Assembly (NCBI GenBank): GCA_943704525.1
Contig: CALSCQ010002687.1
Span: forward strand, 1 to 20,545
Direction of reading: 5' to 3'
From: Pigoraptor vietnamica
Taxonomy: Eukaryota; Opisthokonta; Filasterea
Length of the DNA: 20,545 nt
In this document: positions 4,130 to 20,010 of the stretch, piece by piece
Layout of the letters: each line of letters begins with the position of its first letter
Numbering within the stretch: position 1 is the stretch's first letter
The notes under the pieces: model-generated
What the model saw: the letters and a program-made list of their open reading frames with translations, nothing else
What the model was told of the DNA's origin: nothing
The model's database searches: none
Translations under genes and position numbers: made by a program

Positions 4130-5741
4130 CTATTTCGACTTCGTGATGCAGAGCCAGCCGGTCTCGCCGGGCACGTGCCACGAGGTCTCGGATCCCTGGA
4201 GCACGGGGTCCACGTTCCTCGGCGGCAACACGTAGAGGCTGCCGTCGACCAGCGTGATTTTCACCTGCGTGGTGTAGTCAAGGTGAGCGGACGCCGATGG
4301 CAGCATGTGTTGCGACTTTAGCACACGCAAGGGACGACATCGACAAAACAAGCGGCCAAAAGTGCAGTATCGCACGCACGCAACGCACCTGGTGGGCGCG
4401 CTGCCAGCGCTTGAAGTCGACGCGAAGATCTTCCGGCAACATCCGTGCGTGGTCCCGCATCATGTCGTTCGTCACAACAATCGCGCCAAGGTTGCTGTCC
4501 AGCGCCGCGTACAGCCAGTACAGGTCGTCCGCTCGCCCGGAGGCCGCAAAGTAGATGCGAGGGTCGGGGCGGCCGCGCGGAAAGTCGTTGATGTTCGTGT
4601 CGCGAAGGAGCCCCATGACCTTGTACCCGAGGTTCGAGAAGTGGTCGAGGATCTTGAGGAATCGCGAGGGGTTGAACGAGAGCTGGTTGAGATGCCCGAC
4701 GTTGAGGCCGTCCAGCACGACCTCGAATGGCCCGCGCTGCTTGAGCCACGCGCAGAACGCCTTGAACTCGCGCGTTTGGTCCGAGTCGCGCAGCATGGCG
4801 CGCACGGCCTTCATGAGTTGATCGCGCTTGGCGATCGAGAGGGAGAGGAGCTCGAGCGAGTGCCCGCAGCCACGGCACTCACCGCTGCAAGCGTTCGTGC
4901 ATGTAAGTATGGTTCGGAACGAGGCAACGGTGGCCAAAAGTGACACACCAGCACGGCGTACAAATGACGTGACGTTCGAGCAAATCGGGAAAGCGAAAAC
5001 TCTGGGGCGCGGGCGAGAAGAAGAACGGGGGGGGGGGTGTCACATGTGGGGGTGTCGGGGAGGGGATGCGATGAGCGGAGAGTGGAATGCAACCGCTGGC
5101 CCACCTTTGATTGTCCTGCACCGAGACCTCGGTAATTCTCCACGGAATTTGTTCAACTTGCCTGCACATGCCACACGTGAGCGACCACAGCGGCACGCAG
5201 TCGCAAACGCGCGTTCGAACTTGACGGAATAACAACAGACAGCCGGGGAACACAGAACCCGACGGGAGCCATAAACTCGACAGGTCGACTCTATGGTAAC
5301 TGTGATGGAAATGCCGGACACAGCAGGCTACGCTACCCTAACACCAACTGAACCCACCGTTGGCTCATGAAAAACAGGCGCGCGGCTTCGACGACGGCGT
5401 CGGGGTACGGCCCACCAAGCCTTCGCATGTCCGCAAACACGTCGGCGGAGTGCGCACGAAACTCGCGCGAGGACGTCGCGGCCATTGCATTGAGCATGAC
5501 GGCGAAACACTCGTACTCCATAGTGACTCCGTGTCTGTGAAACCGCTGGTAGGCGTCCCACGCGCGGTCGTGCTCGCCGCGTTTGAGGAACTCACACACG
5601 ACGGGGAGCAGAATGCGACCGCGCGGCTTTAGTTTTCTGCAAAGCGAGTGCCGAGTGCGGGTGTATGTGCGTGTGTGTGTAATGTATGTGTGCGTTGTGT
5701 GTGTTGTGTGCGTGTGCGTGTGCGCGTGTGTGTGTGCGTGC

Positions 5742-12464: not shown

Positions 12465-12996
12465 CTTCACAAGCTACGCCGGACGCCTCGCCCGGCGAAA
12501 AATCCCCCTCAGCTCATTCCGCAGTGTGTGGCACAGAAAAGATCACGAAATCATGCGTGCGTGCACACGCACACGCCTCACATTAGGAGAGTCGTGTGCG
12601 TAAATCTCAATAACAGACTATCAAAGATGCGGTGTCGGCGTGAAGGTTCAAATTGGCAACTCTCCTACCGATCGGAACGGCCAACCATGACAACCGTAAA
12701 ATGTTTTTCCGATGAGATTTTACACTGGGTTTTACACCAAATAATCTCTAAATGTAACCTCTCTCCCGCCAAAACGATGGGACGAACACGTGCAACCACA
12801 GTTCGCGCGCGCAAACATACACACGCATCCACTCGCCCTCGCGTGTCTTGCCCACTTCTGTTCGTGGTCTCCACTTGAGACTCCGTTCCCCACGCTCCAT
12901 ATCCGAAGCGCGCACTTGCGATTCGTTAACGGACTGCGCCGTTTGTACAGTTGCGTTGATAAGTGTCCCCTGTCGCGCTGACGCACACTTCGAAAG
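12465..12996. promoter_or_regulatory. Divergent promoter region between the CCDC83-like and J-protein genes
   Basis: The 532 bp between divergent start codons include an AT-richer core (about 12690-12770). In it, TTTTACAC occurs twice, at 12718-12725 and 12730-12737, about one helical turn apart. An imperfect dyad, GTTCAAATTGGCAAC (12646-12660), loosely resembles an RFX X-box. No gene or RNA gene is recognised. Confidence 0.4.
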
Positions 12997-15900
12997 ATGG
13001 CGTCAAAGAGCGGAAAGCTGACGCGGCAGGAGAGCTTCGACATACTCGGCCTGCCGCACACGGCCACCGAGGAGGAGATCAAGTGCGTGGTCTCCCTCTC
13101 TCTCGCTCTTAACCTGCGTTTTCCCCACTCAGCCTCCCTGCATCCACTCATGCCTCCTCACGGCTCCGATCTCACTCGCTTGTACACACACACACACACT
13201 CTCTCTCTCTTTCTCTCTATCTCCCCCTCGGCGCCCACCGACACATGACATCGTTTCCGGACATTGGAACACACGAATCACGTTAACCGCACGTTAGATG
13301 TGCACCCCAATTTGCCACTGACGCGCGGCTGCTCTCCCCAGGTCGACGTACAAGCGCCTCGCCCTGAAGCACCACCCCGACAAGAACGAGGACAAAGAGG
13401 CCGCCACGCAGACGTTCCAGCGCATTTCCGCCGCGTACACGTGCCTCATTCAGAAGAAGGATGTCGACCAGGCCAGCTTTGCGCGGGCGTTCGACCATTT
13501 CTTCCGCGGCGGCGGCTTTGACGACGAGTACTTTGACGACGAGTTCTTCGATGACGACGACTACGACGATTACGACGACGACGACGACTACGACGACTAC
13601 GACGACAGTCACCACCACCACCACCACCACCACCACCACCCCTACCACGGCCACTTCGGCCCCGGGGGGATTTTCGGCATGTTCTTCGGCGATCCCATGT
13701 TCCGCGACATCTACGGGAGGCCGTTTTTCGAGTTTGAATTCAAGTGCGTATGGGTCCACTTGCATGCGTCCCTTGCATGCGTGTAGTGTCTGCTCGCTCG
13801 TGCTTAAGCTCGTTGCCTCGCGCAGGAGTGACAAAAAGGCGGCGCCCCGGAGGCCCACCTTCGAACCGCGGAAGCCCGAACCGCCACGTGACCCCAAGGA
13901 GATGCCCGGCTACGCGTTTTTTGGGGAGAGCAAGAACGCGATCGTCACGGCCATTCGCACATGCGACACGCAGGCTGTGTACGATGCGGTGAGTGTGTCG
14001 GTCGTGTTCGCCCAACTGTGCATAAATTTGTCGTTCTCTCGAATTTCCGTTTTGAGAATGTCTGTTGTCGTCTTACTCATTACCCTTCTCGCTGTCGTCT
14101 TGCCTCACCTCACACCCCCCTTGCGCATTTCGTCCTCAGTTCGACAAGAGCCCCCATCTCGCCCTTGCTGACGTCGGCCGCGGCAACAATGTCATGCACG
14201 TGTGTGCGTTCTACGGGAATGCGGACCTCGCTAAGGCCCTCGTCAAGCGCTACGCGTGCCTCCGCTGCACCGCCGCCCACAATGAATTCAACATGACGCC
14301 CGCGGCCATCGCCAAGGACCAGCACCCGGAGCTCCACTCGGTGTTCAACGCCCTCGCCAAGCAGTTCCAGGCGGTACGTTCACGCACATGCGTTTTACGT
14401 GGCGCGTTTGTGAACTGCATGTGCGACGAGGCCTTGTCATTTTTGCGCTCATGTCGTCTGTTCTTATTTTGTATTTCCTTTGCAAACCGCAGGAGGAGAA
14501 CGAGCGCAATCGCGAGAAGGCGCGTGTGCAGCAGGAGGCGTCGGCCAAGCGCGCTGCGGCCGACCTGCTCCAGGAGGAGGAGCGAAGGGAGGCTGCCAGG
14601 AAGGAGCGCGAGGCCGAGCGCGAACGCAAGCTCAAGAAGAAGGAGGCGGAAGAGAGCGCCCGCCGTCGCAAGCACCTTCAGGCGACCGCCGACGCGTGGC
14701 AGAAGAAACAGGAGGATCGCATCCGTCGCGGCCTCAAGCCCCTCAACGACGACGGAAGCGTCGACACGAGCAGCGAGAGCAGCGAAGACGAGGAGGTCGA
14801 GAGTGCCCCTGCGAAGGCCCCCGCTGGAGCGCCCAGCACGCCCCCCGCGACGCCGCCGAGCGCGGAACCGGCCAAGGCAGCCGTGGCGCCCCAGCGCACC
14901 AAGGTTAACAAGCCCACGGCGAATGGGCGCCCCGCGGAATCGAATGTAACGCCTGCGGCCGCGCAGAAGCCACAGGCCCAGCCGACGGTCGCACAAAAGC
15001 CGCAGGCCCAGCCCACAAACGCACCCAAGCGGACGCACGTCCCGCCTCCCGCGCGCAAAAGTGTGCCTGCGGCCTCCACGTCTTCGGCCCGCGCGCAGGC
15101 ACCGCAGGCGACCGCCGTACCCGCACCCGTCGAGGAAGAGGCGCCTGACACGACGACGCACGACGAGCGCGTTGCGATGCTCTTGGACATGGGGTTCGCG
15201 TTTGAGACGGCGGCGAAGGCTGCGGAGCAGACCAAGTCGCTCGACGCGTCGATTGCGCGCGCTCTCGAGCTGCACGAGGTTGCCGAAGCGGCCGCCAAGC
15301 GCGAAGCCGAGAACGAGCGCGCGCGTGCGAATCGCGAGCGGAATGCGCGTGGTGGTGCGAAGGGCATGCAGTCGTCCGCGACACCCGTTGCTAGTGCGAC
15401 GCAGCCGCGCACAGAGCCCGCGCCACAGCCGCGCACAGAGCCCACGCCGCCGGTGACCCCACCCCGCGAGGGTGCACGTGACCAGCCCGCGAAACCTCCG
15501 GTTGGGCCTGCGACGCGCGTCTTCCGCCCGTCAAAGTCGCCCTCGAAGACCTCTGTCGCTGCGACTGTGCACGCTCCGATTGGAACGCTCGCCGGGCCCG
15601 CCCCGCCGCAGGCGACTGCCTCTACGCCGGCCCCCCGCGTCGTTGCGGACGGCGCCGCTGCGCCAAAGTCCGCGCCGAATGCCCCCGCGAAGACCGAGTC
15701 TGCGAATGCAACTGCGCCGGCGAAGCCCGCTGTCAACGCGCCAGTTAAGCCGGCTGCCGGCGCACCCGCCGTTGCTCAACCCGCAACGACGCCCAATCCC
15801 GCGCCTTCGATGCCCGGTGCGCTCGCGTCCAAGCCCGCGGCGCCGCCAGCTCGCACACCTGCAAAGGCCCCCGAGCCGGCCAAGCGGGAGGGTCCGCAGC

Positions 15901-17405
15901 CGTTTGTGCAGGTGATTCACCACGACGAACCCGCGACGCCCCCGGTTCAGGAGAGCCGTCTGTCGCTCGGCGACTTCCTCTTCCGCGAGGGACAGCGCGT
16001 CAACGCGTGCAGCACCTTCCGGCGCAATGCTTGCCGCTACGGCAATGACTGCATGTACCGCCACATGACGGCGGAAATTCGCGGGCCGTTTCGCCCCGAC
16101 GTGCACGAGCGTCTGTTTGACGAGGGCGTCGTGGATCCCGTGCCTGCTGGGCAGTTTGTGTTCCGAGACAACGCATTCCCCGGACTCGACGGAAAGACGC
16201 CGCCCCCGCAGCCGGCGCGCGTTCCCGCGCCTAGTAACGCGCCCACCGCGGCTTCGATTGCGGCGGCCTCGCTGCAGCCCGCGCAGACGGCAGTCAACGC
16301 GTCGCATGCACAGCCCCCCGCGGCGCAAGGAGCAGCCACTCACTCAGCCACGTCCGGCGCACCCATGGATGCCGCCAAGCCGCAGCAGCCAGAGATTGCG
16401 TCGTCTGCGGAGCCGTCTGTGCGGACCAGCGTCAATTCGCCGAACCGGAGGGGCCAAGCGTCGCACGCCAAAGGCGGACACGGGCCCGCGCGCTCGCATG
16501 CGCCCGCACCCGCCGCGAAGCCAGCGACGGCGGAGGCGTCGCACGGAGGGCCTGCTGCCCCGACCAGTGCCGACGGTGCGTCCGCGGGCGCCCCTGCGCG
16601 TGGGCGCGTGACGCGGAAGGTGGCTCTTCAGGCGCCCCTTCCGGCCGCCACTCCTTCGCCAGTGGACTTCTCCGCAGCCCCCATTCCCACGCCCGTGACG
16701 GCCGCGGACCCGCAGTCGGTGCGCGTGCCAAAGCCGATCCCCGTCCAGGCCGCACCTGCCGCGCCGCAGGTCAGCCGCGCGCCTCGCGCCACGGCCCCGG
16801 CGTTCACCGGCTTTGCGCAGCCCTCGGCCTCTGCCACCGCTGCCGCCGCTTTCGGCAACCAGGCGCCTGCTACGACTGCGTACGGGAACGCCGCGACGGC
16901 GAGTGCCCTGTATGGGAAGGCCGCCCCCGCCGGCGCCTCTTACGGAAACCAGGCGCCTGCGGCGCGTGCTGCCCATGCGCCCACGCCCTCGAGCGTCCCG
17001 CGCATCCCGCCGACGAGTGCGCATTACGCGCCGCGTCCCGGCCTGTTCGTGCCGCCGGCGCCGCCCGTGGAAAACCCGCCCGCGCCCGCTGCGGACGAGG
17101 CGATTGACGACGAGGCCGCGAACGCGCAGCTGTTCCAGTCGCTTGCCGCGCAGACGTACGGCGGCTTCCCTTTGTGGGGCACTGCGGCACCCGCGTTGTG
17201 GGGTGCGCAGATGTACGGGCAGTTCATGGCGCCGCCTGCGTCTGGGGCGGACGCGCATGCGGCTGCGGCTGCGGCTGCGTACGATGCGTCGTATACGCCG
17301 TTTTACGGTGCGATGTATGGACAGCCCCCGGGGCTTGGGATGTATGCGCCGCAGCTGCCCGCGGACGGCGTTGCGAACAACTACGGGTTTGCCGGTCGTT
17401 CGTGA
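12997..17405 (+). CDS. J-domain protein with ankyrin-like repeats, UBA domain and CCCH zinc finger
   Basis: Exons are 12997-13082, 13342-13743, 13826-13988, 14140-14373 and 14493-17405, giving 1265 residues (phases 2, 2, 0, 0). In order: J domain at about 10-75 with HPD at 40-42 (KHHPDKN), so an Hsp70 co-chaperone is likely; Asp/Tyr/Phe-rich stretch at about 88-117; ten histidines at 119-128; a Gly/Phe segment (GIFGMFFGDPMF); ankyrin-like helices at about 190-295 (GNNVMHVCAFYGNADLAKAL); a Glu/Arg/Lys-rich single helix at about 296-370; a UBA domain at about 518-560 (VAMLLDMGFAFETAAKAAE), which would bind ubiquitin; long Pro/Ala-rich linkers; a CCCH finger, C801-x7-C809-x5-C815-x3-H819; and a Tyr/Gly/Ala/Pro-rich tail (AYGNAAT, SYGNQAP). 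The finger suggests RNA binding. No signal peptide. A co-chaperone linking ubiquitin and mRNA handling is inference; the individual domains are clear. Confidence 0.9.
13184..13218. repeat. CA and CT microsatellite
   Basis: An AC run (about 13184-13200) followed by a CT run to about 13218, inside intron 1 (13083-13341) of the J-domain protein gene. Confidence 0.85.
13610..13639 (+). repeat. In-frame CAC trinucleotide run encoding His10
   Basis: Ten CAC codons without a synonymous change follow GAC/TAC/GAT codons encoding an Asp/Tyr-rich stretch (from about 13520). The pure codon run points to recent trinucleotide expansion and possible length variation. Confidence 0.95.
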
Positions 17406-17805
17406 GGGAACCCATGTACAGTGCATAGTAAACTTAAGATGATACAGAGTGACAGGGTCTCAAGCAAAAAGAGAAAAAAAAAAAGAAGATAGAAAAAAAA
17501 AACGAAAAGAAAAAAAAACTTCCAATAATTGCGCCTCTCTAGATGTTTGTAACGTCGTCTAATTGGAGATCAAAACGATCCCGCAAAAGAGGTCGGCAAG
17601 GGTGTGTCTGCACTGTGGTCTGGCGGCACGCACGTGCTTAATGTGTCTCGGAGGTGCAGGCAGCGCCTCGGTGTATATAGGCCTCAGGGCCATCGCAAAC
17701 ACGACACTGGGTCGCGTCTAGTCCTCTCTGAGTAACAAATTCCCATCCAAGTTGAGCACACGCGTCATTGTACTAATCGGCGCACACACGCCCACACATA
17801 TCGCC
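17406..17805. other. Convergent intergenic gap with a purine/A-rich tract
   Basis: The 400 bp lie between the stops of the J-protein and patatin genes. An A-rich, almost pure purine tract covers about 17464-17518, about 60 bp after the J-protein stop, and could act in 3' end formation or transcription termination. A TATATA motif lies near 17673. No gene is seen. Confidence 0.6.
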
Positions 17806-20010
17806 TCAGTTGCGCCCCTCGGCCTTGAGCACGGCGACGGCGTCCTTGTAGCCCTGCTCGATCATAAACTGCGTGTTCTTCGGGTCGAAGTCGAGGAAGA
17901 AGCCCGGCAGCCACACCGAGGGGTAGATGACGCGGATCTTGGCGTCGGGGTACGCCACGCGCGCGTTCTGGATGTCCTTCATGAAAATGTCCTGGAGCTG
18001 CGAGTGCAACGCAAGAAGAAAGACGCGTCAATAAACATCGACGGGCGTATGCAAGCGCGTGTGTGCGAGTGCATGTGTGGAGCTTGGCCGGTTGACAGCA
18101 CATGGGCGCGGTATGTGCACGGAAGTGAGTGTGAAGTGTATGCGTGCGAATGTGAAGCGTGAAAGAAGAAAGAGACAGCGAGACAGAGGGACGCCCAACT
18201 CGTGCGCACCTTCATCGCAATTGTCCGGACAAGCAGCGCCGGCGTGTTCCACTTGAAGTTGGACGGCGGCAGCTCAAGGCCCACGCAGAGCACCACGTCC
18301 ACCGTGACGTCATCCGCGACTGTCTTGCACCGCTGGATGGCATCGGCCACTGGCGTCTGTTGGGGGAGGCAATGGCGTGCGCGCGGACGGTAAGAGAGTG
18401 AAGCGATGGGACCAGCAACACGCGTTGTCGCAAACGTGCGGCAGAACGAGACATTAAACAGCGACGAAGAACGGATAACCCAATCAAAAAGGCTCGAGTA
18501 TACACGCACAACAAGCGTCGCCATTGTCCCACATTTTTTTTCCACACAGCAAACATAGGATGCATGCCTCGAGTGCACACGAGTGGCAAGCATCGCCTTT
18601 GTCCCACATTTCTCTCCACACAGCAAACATAGGATGCACGCAAGAGCGCGCGCGCACTAACCATGTACTCGGCGCCGCCGTCGACGTACATCTGGTCGCG
18701 GAGGGCGACGGCGGGGAAGACGCCGGGCACAGCGCTCGACGCGCGAAGGGCCGTGAGGAAGTCCGGGTCCGTCTTGGAGAACTGCTGGTAGTTGGCGTCG
18801 GTGAGGGACGTCGCGCCCACCACGCAGTCGCGGCCGCTGTTCGTCAGGTTGGTGAAGTCGACGTGCGCCTGCGGGAAGCACGGAGCTTGAGCACAAATTC
18901 GGAGGCTTTGTGGGCGTATGGTACGTGTGCCGAGTGTTGTGTGCGTGCGTGCGTGCGTGCGTGCGTGCTACTCGTATGCAAGGAGGGGCAGCGAGGCAAT
19001 GCGCGCCCACCGCAAGCCGACAAGAGGGGACGTGTCGAAGACGCTTTGTGTGGATGCATGTGCCGGCGTAAGTGTGAGGGCGAGTGTGCGTGCGGGGGGG
19101 GAATATGTCCCACCGCAAGGTAGTCGACAAGCGGGGACGTGTCGAAGAGGCCAGACTCCGAGAAAAAGCCCTGGACAAGGCCAAGCGGCCAGTCCTTGTA
19201 GATGTCTGCGGGGGGCGTTACGACTGTTACGCGGGAGGAGCGAGACGTCTTCCAAGAAGGCGAGGCGAGGGAGATGGGGAGAAAATGCCAACCAACTCGA
19301 TAATCGAAGGCACGATGATATCACGCGTAAAACGCGCACATTCCATTCCGGAGGGCACACGCACGCACAGCCAAAACTGCACACGCGCCACTCACCCGAC
19401 TTGCGAATGGCGAGCCACTGGTCCACGAGCCAGTTGACGCCGTCAATCTCGTCTCCCACCTGCGACAAGAGGGCGTTAGGCATGCGAACAAGGGGACTCC
19501 ATACACTCACACACGCGCACACGCGCACGCATGATGCTGCGTATAGCAGCACGCGTGCGCACACATGATACGCATGCAAGACACGCATCGCACTCAGGCA
19601 ATCACAACATGAGGGGCATCAGAAGCGCTCGCTCATGCAGAGCAAACACAACGCCAGCCATTCCAAGCACGCGTAATACAACACAAACAGACACACACAA
19701 CAACGCCCACTCAGCACGCATTGCATCTCGCAAGTCAAACGACTCCAGCGCACGCACTCGCCTTGAACTGGCAGAGGGCGCCCGTATTGATGGACCCGGC
19801 CGAGATGCCCGTGACGACGTTCCACGTCACCTGGTCGGCGGGGAGGTTCTCGACAAGGCCCAGCAGAGCACCGGCCTCAAACGCACCGCGGTCGCCGCCG
19901 CCCGCAAGCGCCAGCGCACGGCACGTGCCGCTCTTCGCAGACGGCGCTGCGGATGCGACGGCAACGCACAGCGCAGCCATAAGGGCGCCGAACGCAAGGA
20001 CTCGCGCCAT
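17806..20010 (-). CDS. Secreted patatin-like phospholipase
   Basis: A lipid acyl hydrolase of the patatin family. Exons are 20010-19762, 19459-19396, 19205-19114, 18868-18662, 18356-18210 and 17997-17806, closing in frame to 316 residues (phases 0, 1, 0, 0, 0). A signal peptide (MARVLAFGALMAALCVAVASA) with a likely cut near residue 21-22 points to secretion or a vacuolar/lysosomal lumen. The oxyanion-hole motif is GGGDRGAFEAG (37-47), the nucleophile Ser70 lies in GISAG, and the catalytic Asp198 in YVDGGAEY, so the Ser-Asp dyad is complete. Family segments such as GLVQGFFSESGLFD, ASSAVPGVFPAV and the C-terminal LDFDPKNTQFMIEQGY support full length. The frame is open upstream of the chosen ATG, but only this start gives a signal peptide. 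Intron 1 uses a GC donor. Substrate is unknown. Confidence 0.92.
18493..18641 (-). repeat. Tandem duplication of about 75 bp in patatin intron 4
   Basis: Two copies, about 18493-18567 and 18568-18641, share CTCGAGT at the left, a TTGTCCCACATTT core and AAACATAGGATGCA at the right. They lie in the intron 18357-18661 and end about 20 bp from its donor (GTTAGTGCG at 18661). Confidence 0.85.
18941..18968. repeat. GTGC tetranucleotide microsatellite
   Basis: Seven tandem GTGC units in the intron 18869-19113 of the patatin gene. Confidence 0.9.
19006..19149 (-). repeat. Duplicated exon end and donor site in patatin intron 3
   Basis: The segment 19006-19043 resembles 19109-19149, offset by about 103 bp. 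The second contains the last 36 bases of exon 3 (19205-19114) plus its donor. On the minus strand both read TCTTCGACACGTCCCC followed by (C/G)TTGTCG and then TTGCGGTGGG. The copy lies inside the intron and is diverged by substitutions and a small deletion. Confidence 0.8.
19460..19761 (-). other. GC-AG intron 1 of the patatin gene
   Basis: The donor reads CAGTTCAAG|GCGAGT and the acceptor TTGTCGCAG|GTGGGAGAC. Phase 0 on both sides gives CQFKVGDEIDG, matching patatin spacing after the GxSxG motif. A nearby GTGCGT donor 4 bases further in would shift the frame and is less likely. Confidence 0.7.

Follow-up and report, generated by a model that had tools for sequence, protein, structure and literature searches.

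Results

The window, a 20,545-nucleotide stretch of Pigoraptor vietnamica DNA (contig CALSCQ010002687.1), has a eukaryotic look, with apparently spliced genes. Pfam scans of 20 ORFs in the window yielded matches for two, both on the minus strand. The ORF at 4281 to 5039 matches protein-only RNase P (PRORP, E = 9.5e-28), and mitochondrial RNase P protein 3 and plant PRORP1 are among its solved relatives. The ORF at 18215 to 18967 matches the terminal part of a patatin-like phospholipase domain (profile positions 141 to 189 of 191, E = 2.9e-8).

On the plus strand, five exons between 12997 and 17405 join into one frame of 1,265 codons plus a stop, in agreement with the original prediction of a single 1,265-residue protein. 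Exon 1 (12997 to 13082) begins with an ATG at 12997 that has A at −3 and G at +4 and an in-frame stop 15 bases upstream (12979 to 12981). Exon 2 (13342 to 13743) encodes the remainder of the J domain, an acidic run, a His10 run, and a G/F-rich stretch; exon 3 (13826 to 13988), where coding bias was judged weakest, encodes a basic and proline-containing linker and the first ankyrin-like helices (assigned by eye); and exon 4 (14140 to 14373) encodes the core of the ankyrin-like region. Exon 5 (14493 to 17405, with TGA at 17403 to 17405) encodes a charged helix, a UBA-like stretch, a CCCH finger, Pro/Ala linkers, and a YG-containing tail, and the charged helix, UBA-like stretch, and finger do share one uninterrupted frame (ORF 14286 to 17405), as had been proposed. 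All four introns are GT..AG, with the donors GTGCGT, GTGCGT, GTGAGT, and GTACGT in order. Because the J-domain match crosses the intron 1 junction, that splice is independently supported; the splices of introns 2, 3, and 4 are supported by consensus sites and frame. The five-exon model is plausible as predicted from the genomic sequence.

GC content was highest at the third codon position in all five exons (0.78 to 0.89). The spread of GC among codon positions was 0.48, 0.60, and 0.48 in exons 1, 2, and 4 and 0.24 and 0.15 in exons 3 and 5, compared with 0.13 to 0.22 in the four introns. Codon-phase bias thus marks out exons 1, 2, and 4 only, and it clearly supports these three as coding. A position-specific coding model was built from 263 codons taken from the RNase P and patatin ORFs in the same window. 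The frame of the gene model ranked top among the three forward frames in 5/5 exons, with scores of 0.210, 0.596, −0.016, 0.463, and −0.097 bits per codon for exons 1 to 5. Reverse frames scored above it in exon 1 (0.301 versus 0.210) and exon 5 (−0.043 versus −0.097), and the best reverse frame of exon 3 was nearly equal to it (−0.025 versus −0.016); the best intron frames reached −0.025 and −0.046. Exons 3 and 5 showed no more coding bias than some introns did, and exon 3 is weakly supported as coding. Support for exon 5 comes mainly from its open frame of 1,039 codons, together with its GC content (0.71, versus 0.46 just downstream of the gene) and its domain matches; the model frame led in eight of ten tiles within this exon.

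The single-gene model is predicted from genomic DNA, and neighboring J-ankyrin and UBA-CCCH genes artificially joined at intron 4 would be the alternative. As many as 41 GT..AG pairs near intron 4 preserve the frame, so the open frame is no proof of this junction. Introns 3 and 4 are without a stop in the incoming frame, the unspliced frame of exon 4 continues to 14949, ATGs at 14388 or 14451 could start an exon 5 gene, and the phase spread of exon 5 is itself low (0.15). Against such a join, the GTACGT..CGCAG pair is the strongest of the 41, as judged by eye, and intron 4 (GC 0.48, spread 0.13) differs from exon 4 (0.64 and 0.48) and from exon 5 (GC 0.71). The first 300-base tile of exon 5 clearly favors the model frame (0.26 versus −0.59 and −0.99), and the same two ATGs, the only ones in the frame of exon 5 within 14286 to 14800, both fall inside intron 4. 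A split into two genes near 14380 to 14493 is disfavored, and we consider a wrongly joined model very unlikely.

The J domain (13036 to 13459, amino acids [aa] 14 to 68, across intron 1) is identified with certainty from its sequence. It matched PF00226 with E = 2.2e-17 and 63.3 bits (cutoff, 27.8) in a whole-protein Pfam scan, and the predicted HPD motif is intact at aa 40 to 42 (codons 13373 to 13381); among solved structures in the PDB, Ydj1 and DnaJ led the matches. A short G/F-rich stretch follows the domain. An Asp/Tyr-rich acidic run (13517 to 13609, aa 88 to 118) and the ten histidines noted originally (13610 to 13639, aa 119 to 128, a CAC run) derive from simple codon repeats. The whole-protein scan, which covered matches up to E = 5, returned DnaJ, zf_CCCH_4, and Torus only, and none of the zinc-binding and C-terminal domains of class A/B proteins. 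With a J domain and without those class A/B domains, the predicted protein is a class C J-domain protein.

The ankyrin-like region (13929 to 14370, aa ∼198 to 294, across intron 3; bounds set by eye) contains the repeat core GNNVMHVCAFYGNADLAKALV and an Ank_2-matched core at 14167 to 14313. Segments cut out of the protein matched Ank (E = 0.007 to 0.02), Ank_2 (0.02 to 0.046), and Ank_3 (0.012 to 0.031); cut-out segments were picked by eye, and their E-values are therefore flattered. The three models scored 14.7 to 17.1 bits, all below gathering (best, 17.1 versus 21.1), and no ankyrin match appeared in the whole-protein scan at E up to 5. Designed ankyrin proteins led the PDB matches at E = 3e-12, a value summed over many target repeats, with the best single stretch of the top match at only E = 16; among the best 60 of 82 PDB matches, 4 had one stretch that passed E = 1 alone. 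A single-sequence AlphaFold model of exon 4 alone (pLDDT 45) was too poor to use. The ankyrin-like part of the original prediction thus stands as a repeat core with weak profile matches, not as a domain above cutoff. A match of the segment to Avs3a (E = 0.0068, with 13.5 bits where the cutoff is 2800) was dismissed as chance, as was CUSTOS (E = 0.088, below cutoff), the only Pfam match of the proline-free, E/R/A/K-rich charged stretch that lies at 14493 to 14738 (aa ∼296 to 377).

Exon 5 was also cut blindly into ten tiles, with Pfam matches taken up to E = 1. Only two tiles gave matches, one UBA-like (UBA_7, E = 0.017) and one CCCH (two best models, E = 0.0041 to 0.0043), and the other eight gave none at that threshold, indicating that these matches are not general noise of an Ala/Pro-rich protein.

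The UBA-like stretch (15165 to 15278, aa ∼520 to 557) carries an MGF motif at the place expected in a UBA. Across cut-out segments and the tile, UBA_7 (E = 0.003 to 0.017) and UBA (E = 0.054) matched the same MGF stretch, with 17.9 bits against a cutoff of 27 and 13.8 against 22.4, and covered the profiles partially (positions 4 to 28 of 48 and 4 to 27 of 37). No UBA match was found in the whole-protein scan at E up to 5. The best PDB matches were the UBAs of USP13 (E = 0.18), DDI1 (0.62), and CBL-B (∼1). Single-sequence AlphaFold gave one 62-residue helix (pLDDT 94), not a compact three-helix fold; this result is weak because the stretch was modeled without an alignment, and the input carries an Ala/Glu-rich flank that may favor helix. 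What remains of the predicted ubiquitin-binding UBA is a set of weak, subthreshold matches around MGF, and ubiquitin binding by this stretch would be speculative.

The CCCH zinc finger C-x7-C-x5-C-x3-H (16008 to 16064, aa 801 to 819) is the sole such pattern in the protein and takes three of its just eight cysteines; when the same numbers of Cys and His were placed randomly, a CCCH pattern arose in 2 of 200,000 cases. In the whole-protein scan, zf_CCCH_4 (E = 0.092) and Torus (E = 0.96) matched and zf-CCCH was not listed. Seven zinc-finger models matched a 31-aa segment (E = 0.0004 to 0.03), and one of them, zf-CCCH, exceeded its cutoff by 0.1 bit (20.6 versus 20.5 bits; 17.3 to 18.4 on longer segments). 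PDB matches were led by 6nzl (E = 3.6e-4) and included CPSF4 (0.003), tristetraprolin (0.029), and RBM22 (0.052). The finger is a likely assignment: the exact pattern anticipated in the original prediction is present, and the profile cutoff is passed on the trimmed segment only.

A LARP1 DM15 repeat in place of the finger was rejected, as the full region favors the CCCH protein 6nzl (E = 3.6e-4 versus 0.007). For a 56-aa piece without the first cysteine, the whole-sequence E-values were 0.0073 for 6nzl and 0.0086 for LARP1, and LARP1 was ahead by best single stretch (18.6 versus 14.4 bits); the finger is preferred, since none of its four zinc ligands is missing and their spacing is exact. From about 16026 to 16154, the second half of the finger and the residues that follow align with one LARP1 DM15 repeat, and Pfam LARP1_HEAT matches there with E = 0.06 to 0.15. 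This resemblance is probably chance, but the residues downstream of the finger may form a fold. An FPGL motif at 16176 to 16187 recalls the FPxL motifs of RNA-associated proteins.

The tail (16845 to 17405) is Ala/Pro rich with scattered YG pairs, and a DEC-1_N match to it (E = 2.8) was discarded as chance. An A-rich stretch (17466 to 17519) lies soon after the stop codon. Patterns for the strict p97-binding motif, SHP box, PAM2, PPxY, UIM-like motif, and C-terminal EEVD had no matches in the protein, nor had strict R-x5-AA-x2-R; a loose p97 pattern matched at aa 67 and 677, both outside the charged stretch. The protein has two RGG triplets, far apart.

Relatives were sought in viral, genome-contig, plasmid, and phage collections, which are not meant to hold eukaryotes. 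Viral contigs were searched with aa 1 to 383 and with the CCCH region, and genome contigs with aa 1 to 383; where candidate stretches matched at all, they did so only over the J-domain end (1 of 1 in one search and 5 of 26 in another), and the remaining search had no match among 9 candidates. Plasmids searched at the DNA level with 14140 to 17405 were negative, as were phages searched at the protein level with the ankyrin-to-charged part.

Discussion

The predicted features support one protein that joins a J domain of the Hsp70-recruiting type to a CCCH finger. At somewhat short of even confidence, we read the locus as a spliced gene whose product, a large J-domain protein of class C, would bring Hsp70 to RNA-containing complexes. 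Recruitment and stimulation of an Hsp70 would fall to the J domain, anchoring on RNA or an RNP to the finger and low-complexity arms, and binding of a partner protein to the ankyrin-like segment, so that Hsp70 would reach clients bound to RNA. A preference for ubiquitylated clients, added by a UBA, is possible and is the weakest step. In a review (PMC13254874), class C proteins are described as sharing only the J domain and as having been considered specialists, with few clients or with places such as the ribosome. Under that specialist logic, this protein would be positioned by its finger and low-complexity arms, with Hsp70 recruitment left to the J domain. A link to mRNA or stalled translation, as first suggested, would be a further possibility. 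Weighing against the RNA-directed reading are the subthreshold ankyrin and UBA matches, the E-value of 0.092 for the finger in the whole-protein scan, and a domain set that is known from one sequence.

A CCCH finger that stands alone may have a structural role or bind protein, and it is less tied to RNA than tandem fingers are. On that view, both the finger and the ankyrin-like parts would bind protein, and the whole would be a class C co-chaperone of a general kind, with RNA irrelevant. This is consistent with the lack of any other RNA-binding family among the Pfam matches and with just two distant RGG triplets; the PDB matches of the finger, which include CPSF4, tristetraprolin, and RBM22 besides 6nzl, point the other way, and we hold RNA irrelevance to be unlikely, though a serious contender. 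Rather unlikely, too, is a protein with ankyrin and UBA parts that hand ubiquitylated clients to Hsp70 and with a CCCH finger that sites it at RNP granules or stalled ribosomes. That the UBA stretch is among the only two matching tiles of exon 5, with UBA_7 and UBA on the same MGF residues and UBAs leading its PDB matches, speaks for such delivery; the scores below cutoff, the partial profile cover, and the single predicted helix speak against it. A new type of class C J-domain protein that would sense both ubiquitin and RNA and call Hsp70 to ubiquitylated RNP proteins, for instance at stalled ribosomes or in stress granules, strikes us as improbable. Our preferred reading remains the tentative one of Hsp70 brought to RNA-containing complexes. 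Should the architecture prove conserved and functional, a single protein would link RNA, and possibly ubiquitin, to the Hsp70 machine; if it reflects lineage-specific domain shuffling, it would be a further example of class C J-domain proteins freely gaining parts.

In the excerpts of openly licensed literature searched, no description was recognized of a J domain, ankyrin repeats, a UBA, and a CCCH finger in one protein. Judged from those excerpts and Pfam, the arrangement is likely a new one, in a class known for such variety. Class C (type III) proteins, as portrayed in PMC13254874, share only the J domain and differ from protein to protein in their other parts; the accessory set here was not met in the excerpts searched. 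Class A/B DnaJ and Ydj1, the closest solved J domains, likewise have a J domain with HPD followed by a short G/F-rich stretch, but this protein, by Pfam, is without the DnaJ zinc-binding or C-terminal client domain. Vms1/ANKZF1 resembles it in having an ankyrin segment and then a charged stretch, whereas this protein has neither the strict R-x5-AA-x2-R pattern nor a Vms1-type domain among its Pfam matches. Plant ankyrin-CCCH proteins (RR-TZF) also have ankyrin repeats before CCCH fingers, but their fingers are in tandem and they have no J domain. The yeast auxilin Swa2, with UBA, TPR, and J, would be a further case of a J domain sharing a chain with a UBA, provided that the UBA here is genuine, but in the opposite order and with different accessory parts.
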